Under the pieces are notes generated by a model. That model was not told where the DNA came from and ran no database searches. It saw only the letters and a program-made list of their open reading frames with translations. This document shows positions 13,886-25,480 of a stretch of DNA of 64,000 nt, piece by piece. Position 1 is the first letter of the stretch. Every line of letters starts with the position of its first letter. This DNA is from an uncultured Bartonella sp. (GTDB taxonomy: Bacteria > Pseudomonadota > Alphaproteobacteria > Rhizobiales > Rhizobiaceae). Location: positions 1-64,000 of the forward strand of contig NZ_CALYPR010000004.1 of the NCBI RefSeq assembly GCF_945277285.1, read 5' to 3'. Both the position numbers and the translations under genes were made by a program.

Positions 13886-15049
13886 ATGACAGATTTAAAA
13901 GAGCCGGGCGTGCGCCCGAACAATCCCAATTTCTCTTCTGGTCCCTGTGCCAAGCGTCCCGGTTGGACGGTTGAAGCGCTTGCTGATGCACCGGTTGGCC
14001 GTTCACACCGCGCAAAAATTGGCAAAGCCAAACTTTCCGAAGCAATCAACCTCACCCGCCAGGTTTTGGAAGTTCCTGATAATTATCGTATCGGCATTGT
14101 TCCGGCATCTGATACCGGCGCAGTTGAAATGGCTCTGTGGTCACTTCTGGGTGCACGTGGTGTTGATATGCTGGCTTGGGAAAGCTTCGGCTCCGGTTGG
14201 GTAACAGATGTGGTCAAACAGTTGAAGCTGGCAGATGTGCGCAAGTTGGAGGCGCCTTATGGTGAATTGCCTGATTTAACAAAAGTTGATTTTGACCGTG
14301 ATGTTGTTTTCACATGGAACGGGACAACATCGGGTGTGCGTGTTCCCAATGCCGATTTTATTCCGGCAAACCGCAAGGGGCTGACGATTTGTGATGCAAC
14401 ATCGGCTGCATTTGCACAAAATCTCGATTTTTCCAAACTCGACGTTGTAACCTTCTCCTGGCAAAAGGTGCTGGGTGGCGAGGGTGCCCACGGCATTCTC
14501 ATTCTCGGGCCAAGGGCAGTCGAGCGGCTTGAAAGCTACACACCGGCATGGCCCCTGCCAAAAATTTTCCGTATGACAAAAGGCGGCAAACTTATAGAAG
14601 GCATTTTCGAAGGGGCAACCATCAATACACCTTCGATGCTTTGTGTTGAAGATTATCTTGATGCTTTGAAGTGGGCCAAGTCAATTGGCGGGCTTAAAGT
14701 ATTGATGAAACGGGCTGACGAGAATTTTGCTGTTCTTGATAAATTCGTCACCAAAACCCCGTGGATAGATTTTCTGGCGAAAGTTCCGCAAACACGGTCG
14801 AATACATCGGTATGCTTTAAAATTGTTGATCGGGATGTTGTAAAACTTGATGCCGAAAAACAGGCAGCTTTTGCCAAGGCGATTGTTAACCGGCTGGAAA
14901 AAGCCGGTGTAGCCCACGATATCGGTGCCTATCGCGATGCACCTTCGGGGTTGCGGATCTGGGCCGGTGCAACAGTCGAAGCGGCTGATCTTCAAGCATT
15001 GACTGAATGGCTTGAATGGGCTTTTCAGGCTGAAAAAGCAGCACTTTAA
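13886..15049 (+). CDS. serC: Phosphoserine aminotransferase SerC
   Basis: 387 residues. SerC converts 3-phosphohydroxypyruvate and glutamate to phosphoserine, the second step of serine synthesis, using PLP. It opens with [15 protein letters not shown], typical of the alphaproteobacterial form. The PLP lysine lies in [13 protein letters not shown], and phosphate-binding HRAKIGK is near residue 42. The ribosome binding site AAAGGG lies in the leader described separately. serA follows after a 66-base gap that contains an intrinsic terminator. Confidence 0.97.
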
Positions 15050-15115: not shown

Positions 15116-16720
15116 ATGGCACCTCGTGTACTCGTATCTGATAAATTGTCACCAACTGCTGTGCAGATTTTTAAAGATCGTGGTGTGGAAGTCGATTACA
15201 AGCCGGAGCTAGGCAAAGACAAAGAAAAACTTCTTGAAGTCATTGATCAATATGATGGATTGGCAATCCGTTCGGCAACAAAAGTAACTGAAAAGCTGAT
15301 TGCTGCAGCAAAAAAACTGAAAGTTGTCGGCCGCGCCGGTATCGGCGTTGATAATGTCGATATTCCGGCTGCCTCGCGTCGTGGTATCATCGTGATGAAC
15401 ACACCTTTCGGCAATTCCATCACCACGGCAGAACATGCTATTGCTTTGATGTTTGCCATTGGCCGCGAATTGCCGGCTGCCGATAAATCGACCAAAGCCG
15501 GCAAATGGGAAAAAAGCCGTTTTATGGGGGTTGAAATCACCGGTAAAACATTGGGCATTATCGGTTGCGGCAATATTGGTTCTATTGTTGCAACTCGCGG
15601 CATTGGCCTGAAAATGAAAGTCATTGCCTATGATCCGTTCCTTTCGGAAGCTCGCGCCAAGGAACTAGGCGTCGAAAAGGTCGAGCTTGATGATTTGTTG
15701 AAACGTGCCGATTTCATTACTTTGCATACGCCATTGACAGATAAGACACGTCACATCATCAATGCCGAAACCATTGCTAAAATGAAAAACGGTGTAAGGC
15801 TGATCAACTGTGCTCGCGGTGCTCTTGTGGTTGAAAAAGACCTTGTTGAGGCACTGAAATCCGGAAAAATTGCCGGCGCTGCGGTTGACGTTTACGAGGT
15901 TGAACCACCGGCAACCGACGACCCGTTATTCGGTCTGGATAATGTTGTCTGCACGCCACATCTTGGTGCGTCAACTACTGAAGCACAGGAAAATGTGGCC
16001 CTTCAGGTTGCCGAACAAATGTCGGATTATCTGATTAACGGTGCGGTCAGCAATGCTATCAACATGCCGTCAATCACGGCTGAAGAAGCCCCCCGCTTGA
16101 AACCATTCGTAAAATTGGCAGAAGTTCTTGGTGCTTTTGTTGGCCAGTCAACGGAAGAAGATATCAAGGAAGTTGAAATTCTTTTTGATGGCTCCACCGC
16201 CACCATGAACACACGTGCTTTGATAAGCGCGGCTTTAGCTGGCCTTATTCGCCCCCAGCTTGCTGATGTCAACATGGTTTCGGCACCGGTTCTCGTCAAA
16301 GAACGCGGCATTATTCTTTCCGAAATCAAGCGCGACAAATCCGGCATTTTTGATGGCTATATCAAACTCACTGTCAAAACATCCAAACGCACCCGTTCGA
16401 TTGCAGGAACGTGCTTTGTTGACGGTAAACCACGCTTTATCCAGATCAAGGGAATCAATCTTGATGCCGAAGTTGGCCCACATATGCTTTATATCACCAA
16501 TACTGATACGCCGGGCATTATCGGCACTATTGGTACGATTTGTGGCAAAAACGGCGTCAATATTGCCAACTTTGCTTTGGGACGTAACGAACCGGGTGGC
16601 GATGCTATAGCCCTTCTTTACCTTGATGCCCGCATTCCCGATCATGTCTTGGATGAGTTGCGTAAAATCAAGGGAATCAAGCACACCCAACCTTTGGAAT
16701 TCGATGTCGCCAATGGTTGA
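15116..16720 (+). CDS. serA: D-3-phosphoglycerate dehydrogenase SerA
   Basis: 534 residues, the long form with an extra intervening domain before the C-terminal ACT domain. SerA oxidises 3-phosphoglycerate with NAD+, the first step of serine synthesis. The NAD motif is IIGCGNIGSIVATRGIGL. Catalytic Arg and Glu lie in INCARGALVVEKDL and VDVYEVEPP, and His in TPHLGASTTEAQENV. The last 75 residues (MLYITNTDTPGIIGTIGTIC onward) are the ACT domain that usually senses serine. A strong TAGGAGG site precedes the ATG. Confidence 0.97.
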   Translation: MAPRVLVSDKLSPTAVQIFKDRGVEVDYKPELGKDKEKLLEVIDQYDGLAIRSATKVTEKLIAAAKKLKVVGRAGIGVDNVDIPAASRRGIIVMNTPFGNSITTAEHAIALMFAIGRELPAADKSTKAGKWEKSRFMGVEITGKTLGIIGCGNIGSIVATRGIGLKMKVIAYDPFLSEARAKELGVEKVELDDLLKRADFITLHTPLTDKTRHIINAETIAKMKNGVRLINCARGALVVEKDLVEALKSGKIAGAAVDVYEVEPPATDDPLFGLDNVVCTPHLGASTTEAQENVALQVAEQMSDYLINGAVSNAINMPSITAEEAPRLKPFVKLAEVLGAFVGQSTEEDIKEVEILFDGSTATMNTRALISAALAGLIRPQLADVNMVSAPVLVKERGIILSEIKRDKSGIFDGYIKLTVKTSKRTRSIAGTCFVDGKPRFIQIKGINLDAEVGPHMLYITNTDTPGIIGTIGTICGKNGVNIANFALGRNEPGGDAIALLYLDARIPDHVLDELRKIKGIKHTQPLEFDVANG

Positions 16721-17223
16721 ATTTTAGAGTGCAATTCTGGCGAAACATGACAAAAGGCGATCTGGCAGATGTCTGCCGGATTGCCGCACTTTGCCATCCG
16801 GATTTTCCGGAAGACGAAGTAGTGTTCAATGAAAAATATACACTTTCTCCCGACACCTGTTTTATCCTGAACGGAGAAAATAATAGCGTTGGCTATATTC
16901 TTGCTCACCCTTTTAAAAGTGGCGCTATTCCACCGCTCAATTGCTTGTTGGGGCGACTTCCCCGACAAAGTGACACGCTTTACATTCATGATCTTGCGCT
17001 TTTGCCACAGGCGCGCAACGGAGGAAATGGAAAAAAAGCCGTCAAACTTATGTGTGACAGCGCAAACGAAAAAAAGCTTAAATTGCTTTCGCTTGTTGCC
17101 GTTAATGGATCAACACCCTTTTGGCAAAAAATGGGTTTTGAGCGGGTTATCCCGCCAAAAGAATTGAAAGAAAAACTGCTAACCTATAGCAGTGATGCCT
17201 GTTATATGGAGCGTGCTGTTTAG
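16717..17223 (+). CDS. GNAT-family N-acetyltransferase
   Basis: Up to 168 residues. The acetyl-CoA site reads LALLPQARNGGNGKKAVKLM (beta strand plus the Q/R-x-x-G-x-G loop), followed by AVNGSTPFWQKMGFERV, the usual C-terminal GNAT strand-helix pattern. The start is uncertain: TTG at 16717 overlaps the serA stop (TTGA) and gives the first beta strand of the fold; GTG at 16729 and ATG at 16747 are alternatives. Overlap with serA suggests co-transcription. The acceptor is unknown. Confidence 0.82.
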   Translation: MNFRVQFWRNMTKGDLADVCRIAALCHPDFPEDEVVFNEKYTLSPDTCFILNGENNSVGYILAHPFKSGAIPPLNCLLGRLPRQSDTLYIHDLALLPQARNGGNGKKAVKLMCDSANEKKLKLLSLVAVNGSTPFWQKMGFERVIPPKELKEKLLTYSSDACYMERAV

Positions 17224-17573
17224 AAACTTTCACTTGCTTGATGCGAAGTTGAAGCTATCTAGGAAGCACTTTTATAGATGCAGCGGAAAAAACAGCTTTA
17301 ACGTAGCCGATGATGCGGCGATATAGTTTATCGCAAAGTGGCAATTTTGGGTTAAAATTCAATTCGACGCTTGAGATAAAAGCTGCCCGTTAGTGCAGAT
17401 CATTTATTATTTTTTCTGACCATCATGGCTGACTTATGACTATCAGCGGCAATCTTCAGGTTTAAGGGGCTGTTTTAATGTTTTAACAATCAGATTGCTG
17501 ATGGCAATTCCTGCCATCAGCATATTTGTTTTTTGTGTTACCGAGCGATCTTCATCGCTGATTTTACCAAGTT
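17224..17573. other. Convergent intergenic region
   Basis: 350 bases between the GNAT gene and the 3' end of glpT. Apart from the terminator at 17497-17534 I see no gene, RNA or repeat. This may be the left boundary of the transferred glp segment. Confidence 0.5.
17497..17534 (+). terminator. Intrinsic terminator
   Basis: GCTGATGGCA, five-base loop, TGCCATCAGC: a perfect 10-base stem followed by ATATTTG and six T. It is oriented for the plus strand and could end serA/GNAT transcripts, although it lies about 270 bases past the GNAT stop. On the minus strand no T-run follows the stem, so it would be a weak terminator for glpT. Confidence 0.7.
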
Positions 17574-18908
17574 TTATTCGTGCTTTACGCCCCGCTCACC
17601 AATCATCACAATTGCAAGCAGTAGTATTGCCAATATACCACCGCCGATCATGACGATAAAACCACCGTTCCAGCCGAAATTGTCAACTGTATAGCCGATA
17701 ATAGCACTTGCTGCGACCGAGCCACCGAGATAGCCGAAAAGTCCGGTCAAACCGGCGGCAGTTCCTGCTGCTTTCTTTGGTGCGAGCTCAAGAGCATGTA
17801 GGCCAATCAGCATAACCGGGCCATAAATCAAGAAACCGATAACAATCATGCAGATCATATCGACAGTCGGGTTACCCGCGGGGTTGAGCCAATAAATGAC
17901 GGTAGCAATGGTCACCAGTGCCATAAAAAAGACACCCGTTGCACCGCGATTGCCGTGGAACACTTTATCCGACATCCAGCCGCAAATAAGTGTCCCGGGG
18001 ATGCCCGCATATTCATAGAAGAAATAAGCCGTAGACGATTTATCTAATGCAAAGTGCTTTACTTCTTTGAGATAGGTCGGTGACCAATCAAGAATGCCAT
18101 AGCGTAACAGGTAGACGAATACGTTTGCCAGTGCAATATACCAGAGAAATTTATTCGGCAAAATATACTTCATAAAAATCTGCTTGGTGGTGAGCTCTTC
18201 CTCGTCCTTTTCAGAATAATTTTCCGGATAGTCGTTCTTATATTCTTCAATTGGAGGAAGTCCGCAAGATTGTGGTGTGTCTCGTATCATTGCGTAAGCA
18301 AAAATTGCTACCAGGATAGCCACAAACGCTGGCATATATAGTGCAGCATGCCAGTCATTGAACCACGCCATTCCAAGCATAAACAGTAAAGGAGGAATAC
18401 CACCTCCTACATTATGGGCGCAGTTCCACACCGAAACGATACTGCCACGCTCCTTTTGTGACCACCAGTGAACCATGGTGCGCCCGCAAGGGGGCCAACC
18501 CATACCCTGAAACCAACCGCAGATAAATAATAGCACAAACATGACAATGATACTTGAAGTTGCCCATGGAACAAAGCCCATAAACAGCATAACTGCAGCC
18601 GCAAGAATGAGGCCTGCGGGTAGAAAAACGCGCGGATTTGAGCGGTCCGACACTGAACCCATGACGAATTTTGATATACCATAAGCAATGGAAACTGCTG
18701 ACAATGCAATGCCTAATTGCCCTTTGGAAAATCCCTGTTCTATCAGATAGGGCATAGCGAGTGTAAAGTTCTTGCGCACCAGATAATAGGCAGCGTAGCC
18801 GAAGAATATTCCAAAAAAGATCTGCCAGCGCAGACGACGATAAAGTGGGTCTATTTCCTCTTTCGGCACCATCGGCTTGTGAGGAGCATGCTTAAAAATG
18901 CTTAACAT
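17574..18908 (-). CDS. glpT: Glycerol-3-phosphate:phosphate antiporter GlpT
   Basis: 444 residues, a 12-span MFS antiporter of the organophosphate:phosphate family in the inner membrane. Long stretches agree with E. coli GlpT as I remember it, such as [53 protein letters not shown] and [20 protein letters not shown]. The substrate-site Arg residues are in YYLVRKNF and YLLRYG. The similarity is far higher than expected for a vertically inherited alphaproteobacterial gene. It diverges from glpABC, as in E. coli, but glpQ, which follows glpT there, is missing: the next element is a terminator. Confidence 0.97.
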
Positions 18909-19176
18909 ATCAGTCTCCAGTAAATGTCAACAGAATGCAACCAAAAAAAATATAAAAAATCAATGGCATATTCAACCGCAGCAGGTTAGTAAGAAAACTG
19001 TTTTACCCCATAAGGCGACATGCCACATAAATCGTTACACTCTTTATGACAATATCTATCATTCCCCTCGCAATATCACATTTAAATTTTTTTTGCTCTC
19101 AAATGGGCAAGATAATAAACAATCCACAGTTTAATAAAGACAAAATGGTTAAGACACAGACAAAGGAGAACGCTTC
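18909..19176. promoter_or_regulatory. Divergent glpT/glpA control region
   Basis: 268 AT-rich bases that must hold promoters for both glpT and glpABC. In enterobacteria this gap carries several GlpR operators and CRP sites. I looked for the GlpR palindrome (TGTTCG with CGAACA halves) and for a TGTGA-N6-TCACA CRP site and found neither. A good AGGAG lies before glpA. Regulation has probably been lost or replaced since transfer. Confidence 0.5.
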
Positions 19177-20805
19177 ATGACTCGCCAAACCCTACAGGAA
19201 AGCGACGTTATTGTTATAGGCGGAGGAGCGACAGGCGCGGGAACTGCCCGTGATTGTGCACTACGCGGTCTGCGTGTTACACTCGTCGAACGGGATGATA
19301 TTGCCACCGGCGCTACCGGTCGTAATCATGGTTTGTTACATAGTGGTGCTCGTTATGCGGTCACCGATTGCGAATCAGCCAGAGAGTGCATTTCCGAAAA
19401 TACCATTTTGAAACAGATTGCGCGCCACTGCACCGAATCAACAAATGGGCTGTTTATTACATTGCCGGAAGATGATCTTGATTATCAGCAGAAGTTTATA
19501 GATGCCTGCCAAAAAGCCGGCATTGACGCTGAACGCCTCACGCCGGAACAAGCGCTGGAGATGGAGCCATCGGTTAATCCGACGCTGATTGGTGCCGTTA
19601 AAGTTCCCGATGGCACCATTGACCCATTCCGGCTTACTGCCGCAAACATGCTTGACGCCCATGAACATGGCGCAACCGTGCGTACCAGATGCGAGGTGAC
19701 CGGACTTATCCGTAAGGGTGATAGAGTTTCCGGTATCGTCATTTATGACAAAGCACATAACCAAACCGAAAAGCTTTATGCGCCGGTAGTGGTAAATGCT
19801 GCCGGCATCTGGGGTCAGCATATTGCAGAATATGCCGATCTCAAGATACGCATGTTTCCTGCAAAAGGTTCACTGCTTATTTTCGACCATCGGATAAATC
19901 AGCATGTTATTAACCGGTGCCGCAAGCCTGCCGATGCAGATATTCTGGTACCGGGAGATACGATCTCGGTGATCGGGACGACTTCCACACACATTGATTA
20001 TAAGGATATCGACTACAATCGCGTTACTTCAGATGAAGTGGAGATATTGCTTAAAGAGGGCGAAAAACTCGCACCAGTTATGGCGAAAACCCGCCTTTTA
20101 CGTGCCTATAGTGGCGTTCGGCCGCTGGTTGCTAGCGATGACGATCCGAGCGGACGCAATGTGAGTCGGGGTATAGTTCTTCTGGATCATGCAAAGCGCG
20201 ATGGTCTGGAAGGGTTTATTACCATTACCGGTGGGAAGCTTATGACTTATCGATTGATGGCCGAGATGGCGACCGATGCTGTCTGCCAAAAGCTTAACCA
20301 TAGTGCTCGCTGCATAACTGCTACGACGCCACTTCCCGGTTCCAAGGAACCTGTCGAAAAGACGTTGCAGAAAGTAATTTCACTTCCTACGCCGCTGCGT
20401 GTTTCGGCTGTCTATCGGCATGGCGACCGCACCCCTGCGTGGATTGGCGATTCCCGCCTGCACCGCAGTCTGGTGTGTGAGTGCGAAGCTGTAACAGCCG
20501 GTGAAGTCGAGTATGCGGTAGACAATTTGGCGGTTAAGAGCCTGTTGGATTTGCGCCGTCGCACGCGCGTGGGAATGGGGCCGTGTCAAGGTGAATTATG
20601 TGCCTGTCGTGCAGCTGCCTTACTCAGCCGTTTCGAGGTGATAAGTCCCACGCAGTCTCTCAATCAGCTGGCCGATTTTCTTGATGAGCGCTGGAAAGGT
20701 GTGCAGCCTATCGCTTGGGGCGATGCCATGCGTGAAAGTGATTTCACCCGCTGGATATGGCTGGAATTGTGTGGTTTGCAAAAGGAGAATGGGGATGAAG
20801 TTTGA
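19177..20805 (+). CDS. glpA: Anaerobic glycerol-3-phosphate dehydrogenase subunit A
   Basis: 542 residues, the catalytic FAD subunit of GlpABC, which oxidises glycerol-3-phosphate to dihydroxyacetone phosphate and passes electrons to quinone. The FAD motif is VIVIGGGATGAGTARDCALR and the substrate region includes GATGRNHGLLHSGARYAVTD. The C-terminal BFD-like domain has the iron-sulfur Cys pattern CECEAV and GPCQGELCACRAA. Extended identity with the E. coli protein supports transfer from a gammaproteobacterium. AGGAG precedes the ATG. Confidence 0.97.
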   Translation: MTRQTLQESDVIVIGGGATGAGTARDCALRGLRVTLVERDDIATGATGRNHGLLHSGARYAVTDCESARECISENTILKQIARHCTESTNGLFITLPEDDLDYQQKFIDACQKAGIDAERLTPEQALEMEPSVNPTLIGAVKVPDGTIDPFRLTAANMLDAHEHGATVRTRCEVTGLIRKGDRVSGIVIYDKAHNQTEKLYAPVVVNAAGIWGQHIAEYADLKIRMFPAKGSLLIFDHRINQHVINRCRKPADADILVPGDTISVIGTTSTHIDYKDIDYNRVTSDEVEILLKEGEKLAPVMAKTRLLRAYSGVRPLVASDDDPSGRNVSRGIVLLDHAKRDGLEGFITITGGKLMTYRLMAEMATDAVCQKLNHSARCITATTPLPGSKEPVEKTLQKVISLPTPLRVSAVYRHGDRTPAWIGDSRLHRSLVCECEAVTAGEVEYAVDNLAVKSLLDLRRRTRVGMGPCQGELCACRAAALLSRFEVISPTQSLNQLADFLDERWKGVQPIAWGDAMRESDFTRWIWLELCGLQKENGDEV

Positions 20806-22042
20806 TACGCTCATCATTGGCGGCGGACTGGCCGGTTTATTGTGCGGTATTTCCCTTTCAGGGCAAGGGCAACGCTGTGCAATTATCAGCCGTGGACAGA
20901 GTGGACTTCATTTCTCGTCCGGTTCGCTCGATTTGCTTGATGGTGCCACCTCTTCCAGTCTCGAAACTGATATTGCAACATTTTGTCAGAAACACCCATC
21001 GCATCCTTATGCATTGATTGGGGCTAAATCGGTAATCGACTATGCAAAAAGAGCTGAAAAATTGTTGCTTGATTGCGGCGTTGGTTTGCGTGGTGATGTA
21101 AAAAAGCTCCATCAACGTGTCACTCCACTGGGGAAACTGAAGAATTGTTGGCTGAGTCCGGAAGAGGTGCCTGAGGGGCCGGTGGTTGATCAACATATTG
21201 CTGTTGTAGGAATTAGCGGTTTTCCTGATTTTCAGGCGCATCTGGCTGCCGTGTCTCTTAAGCAGGCGGGTGCTGATGCGGAAGCGATGGATGTCGAGCT
21301 CCCTCAATTGGATCGGCAGCGGGAAAATGTTTCAGAATTTCGTTCTGTTAACATTGCCCGGGCGCTGGATGAAAAAACTCAGTGGTCGATGCTCTGCAGT
21401 GTTTTGCAACCCATTTCAGAGCGTTACGATCGCATCATGTTTCCAGCTTGTTTTGGCCTGCAAGACAATAAGCTTTGGCATTGGCTGAACGGGCAGCTCT
21501 CTTGCCCACTGGAATTATTGCCTACGCTGCCGCCATCGGTTCTTGGTATCCGTATGCATACTTTACTGCAGCGCCATTTTGTCAAACTCGGCGGGACATG
21601 GCTCGCCGGTGATGAAGTTGCAGATGTCAAATATGATCAGCAGCGTGTGACTGCCATTTTTACCCGTAACCATGGTGATGTGCCGTTAGAGCCGCGTTTT
21701 GTTGTTCTGGCAAGTGGCAGTTTTTTTAGTAATGGTCTTGTGGCTGATAGAAACCGGATTTACGAACCGGTCTTCAATCTTGACATCACACCAATGCCCG
21801 CGCGTGACAACTTGTATAATAATAACTTTTTCGTCGCTCAGCCATGGCAACTTTGCGGCGTTAAGGTAGATAGCTCGCTTCGAGGGGAGCGTGACGGTCA
21901 GCATTTTGAAAACCTTTTTGCTATTGGCGGTGTGCTCGGTGGTTTTGATGCTATTACGCAAGGTTGCGGGGGCGGTGTCAGCGTTGCCACGGCGCTTCAT
22001 GCGGCGCACCAAATCAGCATAGTTGCAGGAGATAATGCATGA
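20795..22042 (+). CDS. glpB: Anaerobic glycerol-3-phosphate dehydrogenase subunit B
   Basis: 415 residues from ATG at 20795, which overlaps glpA by 11 bases with AAAGGAG just upstream; E. coli GlpB is of similar length. The start reads MKFDTLIIGGGLAGLLCGIS, a nucleotide-binding motif for FMN. GlpB joins GlpA and transfers electrons towards the membrane-associated GlpC. The frame is open further upstream inside glpA, but that part is not GlpB. Overlaps on both sides show tight coupling. Confidence 0.95.
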   Translation: MKFDTLIIGGGLAGLLCGISLSGQGQRCAIISRGQSGLHFSSGSLDLLDGATSSSLETDIATFCQKHPSHPYALIGAKSVIDYAKRAEKLLLDCGVGLRGDVKKLHQRVTPLGKLKNCWLSPEEVPEGPVVDQHIAVVGISGFPDFQAHLAAVSLKQAGADAEAMDVELPQLDRQRENVSEFRSVNIARALDEKTQWSMLCSVLQPISERYDRIMFPACFGLQDNKLWHWLNGQLSCPLELLPTLPPSVLGIRMHTLLQRHFVKLGGTWLAGDEVADVKYDQQRVTAIFTRNHGDVPLEPRFVVLASGSFFSNGLVADRNRIYEPVFNLDITPMPARDNLYNNNFFVAQPWQLCGVKVDSSLRGERDGQHFENLFAIGGVLGGFDAITQGCGGGVSVATALHAAHQISIVAGDNA

Positions 22043-23235
22043 GTGATACACGCTTTGAAGATTGCATTAAATGCACAGTCTGCACGACCTCGTGCCCGGT
22101 AAGCAGAGTTAATCCGAACTATCCCGGACCGAAGCAGGCCGGGCCAGACGGGGAGCGGCTTCGCCTTAAAAACGGTGCACTTTATGATGAAGCTCTCAGT
22201 TACTGTATCAATTGCAAACGCTGCGAGGTTGCCTGTCCATCCAATGTGAAAATCGGCGATATTATTCAACTTGCGCGCATGCAATATAGTCAGAAAAAGC
22301 CGATACTCAGAGACTTTATTCTCAGTCATACGGATCTGATGGGGTCGCTATCAGTACCTTTTTCACCAATTGTTAATATCACAACCGGATTAAAACCGGT
22401 TCGTCAGCTGTTGGACAAGACCCTGAAAATTGATCATCGGCGCACTTTGCCAAAATATGGGAGTCACACTTTTCGCCGTTGGTTTCGCAGCATTGCGAAA
22501 CAGCAGGCGCAATTTGATGAACAGGTGGCCTACTTCCATGGCTGCTATGTTAATTTCAATAATCCTCAGCTTGGAAAAGATTTGGTGCGTGTTCTCAATG
22601 CCATGGGCATAGGTATGCAACTTCTGGAAAACGAAAAATGTTGCGGCGCACCATTAATTGCGAATAACTTCATCGCTAAGGCACGCAAGAAGGCGAGTAG
22701 TAATGTCAATACGCTGCGGCAGACAATTATTGAGAAAAAACTGCCTGTCATTGCAACATCGTCAACGTGCACCCATACATTGCGCGATGAATATCCGCAC
22801 ATGCTTGATATTGAAAACGCCGATTTGCGAGATCATATTGAGCTTGTAACCCGTTGGATATGGAAACAGCTTGAAGCCGGAAAGACGCTGTCGCTTCGAA
22901 AAATGCCGCTGAAAGTTGCCTATCATACTGCCTGTCATATGGAAGTTATGGGTATGGCCATCTATACGATCAATCTTTTGCGATTAATCCCCGGGGTCGA
23001 GGTGCAGGTGTTGGATTCCCAATGCTGTGGAATCGCCGGCACCTATGGCTTTAAAGCCGAGAATTATCAAACTGCACAGGCTATCGGAGCGTCACTGTTC
23101 GAGCAGATCGAAGAAAGTGGTGCTGACATGGTGATTACCGATTGTGAAACCTGTAAGTGGCAAATCGAGATGTCCACCAGCAAGAGTTGTGTGCACCCGA
23201 TTACACTATTGGCGCAGGCTCTTGATGTGCAATAA
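22039..23235 (+). CDS. glpC: Anaerobic glycerol-3-phosphate dehydrogenase subunit C
   Basis: 398 residues. GlpC anchors GlpAB and passes electrons to quinone. Two [4Fe-4S] clusters are seen at the N-terminus: CIKCTVCTTSCPV (from residue 9) and CINCKRCEVACPS (near residue 56). Two CCG-type cysteine domains follow (EKCCGAPL and SQCCGIAG), as in heterodisulfide-reductase-like subunits. It overlaps glpB by four bases (ATGA). All ligands are intact, so the complex should work; whether ubiquinone serves as acceptor here is unknown. Confidence 0.96.
   Translation: MSDTRFEDCIKCTVCTTSCPVSRVNPNYPGPKQAGPDGERLRLKNGALYDEALSYCINCKRCEVACPSNVKIGDIIQLARMQYSQKKPILRDFILSHTDLMGSLSVPFSPIVNITTGLKPVRQLLDKTLKIDHRRTLPKYGSHTFRRWFRSIAKQQAQFDEQVAYFHGCYVNFNNPQLGKDLVRVLNAMGIGMQLLENEKCCGAPLIANNFIAKARKKASSNVNTLRQTIIEKKLPVIATSSTCTHTLRDEYPHMLDIENADLRDHIELVTRWIWKQLEAGKTLSLRKMPLKVAYHTACHMEVMGMAIYTINLLRLIPGVEVQVLDSQCCGIAGTYGFKAENYQTAQAIGASLFEQIEESGADMVITDCETCKWQIEMSTSKSCVHPITLLAQALDVQ

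Positions 23236-25480
<2,245 letters not shown>

Follow-up and report, generated by a model that had tools for sequence, protein, structure and literature searches.

A glpT-glpABC cluster of enterobacterial type, lacking glpQ, in a Bartonella genome

In enterobacteria such as Escherichia coli and Pluralibacter, the gene for the glycerol-3-phosphate (G3P) transporter, glpT, lies with glpQ on one side of a divergent promoter spacer, and glpABC, which encodes the anaerobic G3P dehydrogenase, lies on the other. Here, we describe a cluster of this type in an uncultured Bartonella sp. (assembly GCF_945277285.1; 2.45 Mb in 9 contigs), which we take to belong to the bee-gut group of the genus, the sense in which 'bee clade' is used below. 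The cluster occupies positions 17,574 to 23,235 of the window, by which we mean the whole stretch of 64,000 nucleotides analysed, at the start of contig NZ_CALYPR010000004.1 (C4). It shares with the enterobacterial locus its protein families, divergent order, spacer length, cofactor motifs and overlapping glpA-glpB and glpB-glpC junctions, but differs in that glpQ is missing, the CRP and GlpR control sites are unrecognisable, the composition is host-like and the cluster sits between a GNAT-family acetyltransferase gene and purA of an alphaproteobacterium. Horizontal transfer from a Pluralibacter-like enterobacterium is well supported by the sequence comparisons that follow.

The transporter gene glpT (17574..18908, minus strand) encodes a protein of 444 residues that scores 914.6 bits against an NCBIfam equivalog cut-off of 748 (NF008433). 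On the plus strand, glpA (19177..20805; NF008313, 1028.2 bits against 425; DAO and Fer2_BFD domains) encodes the flavin adenine dinucleotide (FAD) subunit, with 542 residues and a C-terminal BFD-like [2Fe-2S] domain, glpB (20795..22042; NF003718, 586.2 bits against 370; FAD_binding_2) the second flavoprotein subunit, with 415 residues, and glpC (22039..23235; TIGR03379, 702.0 bits against 279.9; two CCG domain stretches) the iron-sulphur subunit, with 398 residues. All four are uninterrupted full-length frames, and glpABC are adjacent on one strand; the longest glpB frame opens at 20681, while the family match starts from the ATG at 20795, overlapping the end of glpA. Residues 3–440 of GlpT match the solved E. 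coli-type GlpT 1pw4 (E 3.3e-273), and R45, K80, H165 and R269, which we take to be important residues in GlpT, are all present. FAD motifs are found in GlpA and GlpB, and GlpC carries two CxxCxxCxxxC motifs (residues 9 and 56). Solved structures include no close relative of GlpA (best E 2.3e-33). Identities to the E. coli locus (L031) are 87% for GlpT, 78% for GlpA, 55% for GlpB and 74% for GlpC, and glpT faces away from glpABC across a spacer of 268 bases (18909..19176), compared with 273 in L031. The original prediction, made from the DNA letters, of an enterobacterial-type cluster with long identities to E. coli and the divergent layout kept is thereby borne out, and the enzymes belong to a well-known kind.

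Phylogenetic placement and donor

A scan of named genomes for GlpC gave at least 588 confirmed loci, from which the best 80 were kept. The top GlpC among these is that of L009, a locus of uncultured Pluralibacter sp. S2C87093_SP39, and the next loci are largely from Enterobacteriaceae. L009 is among the nearest named relatives of the whole cluster (GlpA 86%, GlpB 69%, GlpC 81% and GlpT 87% identical) and its spacer is also 268 bases long; it differs in carrying glpQ and in the G+C content of its third codon positions (GC3), which is 74–77%. Among the matches listed for GlpB, the window's own protein is followed by a metagenome protein at 89%, by seven proteins at 66–70%, whose named rows are two Pluralibacter gergoviae, and then by matches of 60% or less. 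The matches listed for GlpA run from variants at 99–100% through two metagenome proteins at 93–94% to a set at 83–86%, whose named rows are all Pluralibacter, and then drop to 81% or less. The metagenome proteins that are sister to those of the window (P0002, P0259 and P0260) probably represent a second related lineage with glpABC.

In a tree of concatenated GlpABC, built from 36 of the best 80 loci and the window, a 37th chosen row having been dropped as incomplete, the window and L009 are joined at 100/100. Single-gene trees, each with 27 of the best 80 loci and 16 or 12 listed proteins, place the window in a Pluralibacter-clade set of 14 rows for GlpA (100/99) and of 10 rows for GlpB (100/100). 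GlpT has changed less and says less about the donor than GlpABC: in a careful tree of 40 rows, which left out the cut piece of genome G062 and the broken frame of G046, the copies of the host genus form a single clade (100/96) and L009 is its neighbour at 85/85, the bootstrap not having settled. An approximately unbiased (AU) test did not reject a grouping of the window's GlpT with L009 but without its sisters (p 0.102). GlpQ, which is found in sister genomes, joins L009 at 85/91 in a 26-row tree (22 of 58 loci with GlpQ). The gammaproteobacterial origin that had been predicted is thus upheld and narrowed to a Pluralibacter-like donor, as GlpA, GlpB, GlpABC and GlpT all fall among Enterobacteriaceae and not in an alphaproteobacterial clade. 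Against a donor from the Orbales there is only the strength with which the proteins are placed with Pluralibacter, as no row of the trees is named Orbales.

Both Pluralibacter and Bartonella appear as genera of the honeybee gut in PMC12518797, and PMC10259447 reports a sequence variant of Pluralibacter in Apis mellifera. Since both genera are named from the honeybee gut, a gut co-resident as donor, as first suggested, is plausible.

A few records stood out along the way. The best 120 listed GlpT proteins are filled with gammaproteobacteria, and the GlpT of the window and of its sisters are not among them, so that a protein's absence from this list carries no weight. Two GlpT proteins named Candidatus Tokpelaia (P0193 and P0203, 75% identity) form long branches with Xenorhabdus and Providencia in a quick tree, apart from the window clade, and are perhaps a separate transfer. 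Record titles naming Chryseobacterium (L004) and Pseudomonas (L034) occur among the Enterobacteriaceae-like GlpC loci of the best 80, and GlpB of Pluralibacter UBA7423 (L015) groups with Scandinavium, not with L009 and P. gergoviae; these three labels look wrong or outdated.

Sister lineages and the number of transfers

Across a genus sample of 71 genomes (about 1.4–2.9 Mb), GlpC is found only in the window's own genome, but GlpT orthologs (85–88% identical) occur in eight others, making nine with the host; further matches are weak. In the seven sisters whose flanks were read (G003, G004, G014, G044, G045, G046 and G061, all of the eight except G062), the site of glpT is that of the window's cluster, with the GNAT gene on one side and purA on the other. 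These seven loci share with the window the site, the GlpT clade and a promoter relic, and differ in lacking glpABC. The state of glpQ also varies: it is intact beside glpT in G004, G045, G046 and G061, a stump with a stop in G003, G044 and G062, and without a match in G014. The host genome (G000) likewise has no GlpQ match, and a tblastn search with sister GlpQ against 17224–17600 of the window revealed no remnant (best E 0.86). The cluster has therefore been trimmed of glpQ, as originally proposed, and the sister lineage appears to have been trimmed in the opposite way, without glpABC.

As nine genomes of the genus carry glpT, the transfer must predate the species. Synonymous divergence (pS) of glpT between the window and three sisters is 0.69–0.73, compared with 0.58–0.64 for serA and purA in two sisters, as expected if glpT predates the split of the window from its sisters. 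A serC-serA-purA tree unites G000, G057 and the seven sisters in one group (100/100), the basal order of which is unresolved, and places G058–G060 and G063 outside it; G057 and G060 cover less than half of the columns in this tree, and G046 only part of purA. In G057, G058 and G059, the spacer between GNAT and purA is short and without glpT.

The spacer between glpT and glpA bears on how many events took place. Had the block arrived whole, sisters lacking glpABC would be expected to retain the glpA-proximal part of this spacer, and they do. Without the 60 bases next to glpT, the L009 spacer gives alignment scores of 35–97 with the spacers of the seven sisters, in each case higher than in any of 1000 dinucleotide shuffles (highest 29–33). 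In six of them the match ends at spacer position 255–257 of 268, 11–13 bases before the glpA start, and in G044 it ends at 145. That the sisters keep donor-type spacer so near to glpA speaks for a single transfer, with glpABC lost afterwards in the sisters.

We hence consider it probable that a single glpQ-glpT-glpABC block entered an ancestor and was then lost reciprocally. A Pluralibacter-like enterobacterium would have supplied the block, with glpQ-glpT on one side and divergent glpABC on the other, to the ancestor of the species and its sister group, where it would have landed between the GNAT gene and purA. Afterwards, glpQ would have disappeared from the window lineage, which retains glpT and glpABC, and glpABC from the sister lineage, which retains glpT and, in part of the sisters, glpQ.

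Alternatively, glpQ-glpT could have entered the ancestor first, and glpABC could have come later into the window lineage and recombined next to glpT. This would account for glpABC in one genome of 71 compared with glpT in nine, for the spacers of the sisters, which hold no GlpABC remnant at E 1 or better, and for the weak tie of GlpT to L009. A first fragment ending just before glpA would fit the sister spacers too. However, such a history sits poorly with the donor-type spacer kept almost to the glpA start in six of seven sisters, with the exact L009 length and layout of the window spacer, and with careful trees in which GlpT, GlpQ and GlpABC are all nearest to L009. Two transfers are thus improbable.

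Several results weigh against a single block from a Pluralibacter-like donor. The GlpA and GlpB trees leave it unsettled whether the window lies inside or beside Pluralibacter, a quick GlpT tree of 54 rows put Cronobacter beside the genus clade (83), and the placements of GlpT and GlpQ beside L009 are both below starred support. The window's own spacer beats all 1000 shuffles against only three of the seven sisters; in two others its score is reached by 4 of 1000 shuffles, and the last two comparisons fall short of significance (99 and 692 of 1000). Finally, G057 (86% complete) is without glpT, its site having been read and found short, which calls for either one more loss or a branch that left earlier; the species tree does not decide between these.

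Distribution, composition and insertion site

Among the genomes sampled, relatives of the enzyme in other alphaproteobacteria are distant. In a family sample of 199 genomes, 184 (the host included) have a GlpC match, but among the matches listed none exceeds 33%, and the best non-self match has 28% identity, with a portion of a 1030-residue frame. For GlpB, 32 of 398 genomes in a phylum sample match at E ≤0.001, with clear orthologs in families f49 and f41 (42–57%), 35% identity in f53 and 25–27% in f58; the best other match in the window's own class has E 1.5e-11. For GlpA, 281 of 385 genomes in a class sample match at E ≤0.001, with at most three candidates scored per genome, but E <1e-100 is reached only in the host genome and in two others (43% and 37%), the next being 2e-42. 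These two proteins, from one family, f20 (G424 C114, locus L232, and G440 C16, locus L233), have only weak GlpB matches nearby and are of a divergent kind. Vertical inheritance, with a GlpABC present in ancestral alphaproteobacteria and since lost from nearly all others, could point to the two GlpA-like proteins, but their identity is far below the 83–86% of Pluralibacter, the GlpC matches listed for the family are no nearer and the trees put the window's proteins among Enterobacteriaceae, which makes it almost untenable.

The composition of the cluster is close to that of its host. GC3 is 44–49% in the four glp genes and 37–46% in seven host genes of the window, far from the L009 values, and codon use of all four genes is closer to the host than that of the L009 genes, although overall slightly below the fit of the host genes. 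A codon and G+C profile had been suggested as a check of foreign origin: a foreign signal is hardly visible, and what remains is the slight deficit in codon fit relative to host genes. As a sign of transfer, composition is consequently of little use in genes so nearly host-like, but the extensive amelioration indicates that the transfer is not recent.

Enterobacterial contamination of the assembly or sample can hardly be the explanation: the cluster comes from one assembly of 9 contigs and its glpABC is found only there in the genus sample, but codon use and GC3 are host-like, unlike those of L009, the insertion site is that of glpT in the sisters, and the matches listed for GlpA include 17 further variants at 99–100%, on contigs of up to 144 kb. 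With the window's own, these make 18 variants, for which reason an assembly chimera is unlikely too.

On the left of the cluster, all on the plus strand, lie serC for phosphoserine transaminase (13886..15049; TIGR01365, 723 bits against a cut-off of 448; homologous DNA in relatives), serA for D-3-phosphoglycerate dehydrogenase (15116..16720; solved relatives, and collinear in those bee-clade loci that are long enough) and the GNAT-family acetyltransferase gene (16717..17223; PF00583), where homologous DNA in relatives reaches to 17208–17214. The spacer that follows (17224..17573) is the expected place of glpQ. On the right, an A+T-rich spacer (23236..24187) separates glpC from purA for adenylosuccinate synthase (24188..25480, plus strand; NF002223, 661.8 bits), a gene present in 70 of the 71 genus genomes. 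Only the last 95–110 bases or so of this spacer match relatives in blastn, and 23236–24075 (about 840 bases) has no match to the sisters or to enterobacterial loci. Collinearity with nearer relatives extends over serC-serA-GNAT to the left and purA to the right; G070 and G023, which are more distant and were also read, gave matches to serC and purA only. The flanks thus belong to the host genus, in agreement with their earlier description as alphaproteobacterial.

Other genes occur at the same site. In G044 (L135 6801–10644), G003 (L136, similar frames) and G063 (L141 11868–15695), the GNAT-purA interval holds a three-gene gluconate 2-dehydrogenase-like set, identified by Pfam on L135 and L141 as a cytochrome c, subunit 3 (PF13618) and a GMC oxidoreductase, and the site seems to collect dehydrogenases. 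Consensus scans gave 14 promoter-like sites compared with 12.5 in shuffles and 12 terminator-like sites compared with 7.2 (sd 2.8), and were not used.

Predicted role and control in the host

The host also encodes GlpD (719 bits against a cut-off of 360), another FAD-linked G3P dehydrogenase, which differs from GlpABC in being a single subunit and has only 28% identity to GlpA where the two align. A MIP-family (GlpF-like) channel gene lies beside glpD, and the genome encodes GlpK (742 bits; over the cut-off in 9 of 71 genus genomes) and cytochrome bd subunit I (579 bits). Bee-clade genomes differ in their glycerol metabolism: G057, G058, G059 and G060 have no GlpD over the cut-off, and G057, at 86% completeness, has no match at all. 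Given GlpD, GlpABC, GlpK and the channel, glycerol and imported G3P can feed a pool with two quinone-linked exits, and the predicted second way of oxidising G3P is supported by gene content. GlpT would import G3P, GlpA would oxidise it with FAD to dihydroxyacetone phosphate, and the electrons would pass through GlpB and the Fe-S clusters of GlpC to the quinone pool, alongside host GlpD.

Comparison with the donor-type loci indicates that the old control sites have decayed. With consensus sequences for the CRP and GlpR sites of the E. coli-type glp regulon, the spacers of L009, L005, L015 and L031 hold a CRP-like site with 1 mismatch and a GlpR-like operator with 3–5. The window spacer has 3 mismatches for CRP and 8 of 20 for GlpR, both the commonest value in 500 shuffles, so that donor-type sites appear unrecognisable, at chance level. 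Sister spacers have 3 mismatches for CRP and 5–7 for GlpR, and an operator trace may remain in that of G004, where 13 of 500 shuffles got down to 5 mismatches. Two DeoR-type regulators are found in the whole genome, at 93.5 and 92.4 bits against a GlpR cut-off of 331.

These results could mean that the genes are idle, their expression lost with the donor's regulators while GlpD does the work, which is compatible with the transfer history. Besides the chance-level sites and the DeoR-family scores far below the GlpR cut-off, the encoded GlpD and a sister lineage that lives without glpABC would fit. However, the cofactor motifs are kept, the 18 near-identical GlpA variants among the matches listed are full-length and the first two codon positions have changed little. 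Codon positions 1, 2 and 3 of glpA differ from L009 by 0.11, 0.08 and 0.56, and positions 1 and 2 by 0.24 and 0.17 in glpB and by 0.17 and 0.10 in glpC, the third positions of the three genes differing by 0.56–0.61. Synonymous change is near or at saturation and change at positions 1 and 2 is low, which indicates that the genes have been under selection for much of their time in the host, and we regard idleness as unlikely.

Two further points count against the explanation preferred here. The branch leading to GlpABC of the window has about twice the length of the L009 branch (0.27 compared with 0.13), so that constraint may be somewhat relaxed. In E. coli, GlpABC is described as the anaerobic enzyme, working with menaquinone, and GlpD as the aerobic one, working with ubiquinone (PMC11962113); the host may use another quinone, and the low-oxygen role proposed for GlpABC would be an analogy with E. 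coli. Tentatively, and with slightly more doubt than confidence, we suggest that the transplanted respiratory module runs without its original regulators, under new control, with GlpABC feeding the host quinone pool and cytochrome bd, and that the sister lineage resolved the same redundancy by deleting the module.

Searches of open-licence literature found nothing on Bartonella apis with glycerol-3-phosphate or on Bartonella with glpABC. Hits for Bartonella with GlpT were unrelated, judged by title and the start of the abstract, and the search on horizontal transfer of glpABC in Alphaproteobacteria gave only work on archaeal lipids; the passages of PMC9600256 and PMC6044324 in which the search terms were found name no glp gene.

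The biochemistry of the enzyme is already known, and the interest of the locus lies in the reciprocal trimming and in the loss of the old control sites. It offers a clear case, bracketed on the species tree, of a multi-gene respiratory module moved between bacterial classes, and, with sister lineages trimmed in opposite ways, it opens the question of what determines the half of a transferred pathway that stays. The locus further allows one to ask, in a natural setting, if GlpABC functions where the regulators, and perhaps the quinone, differ from those of its source.

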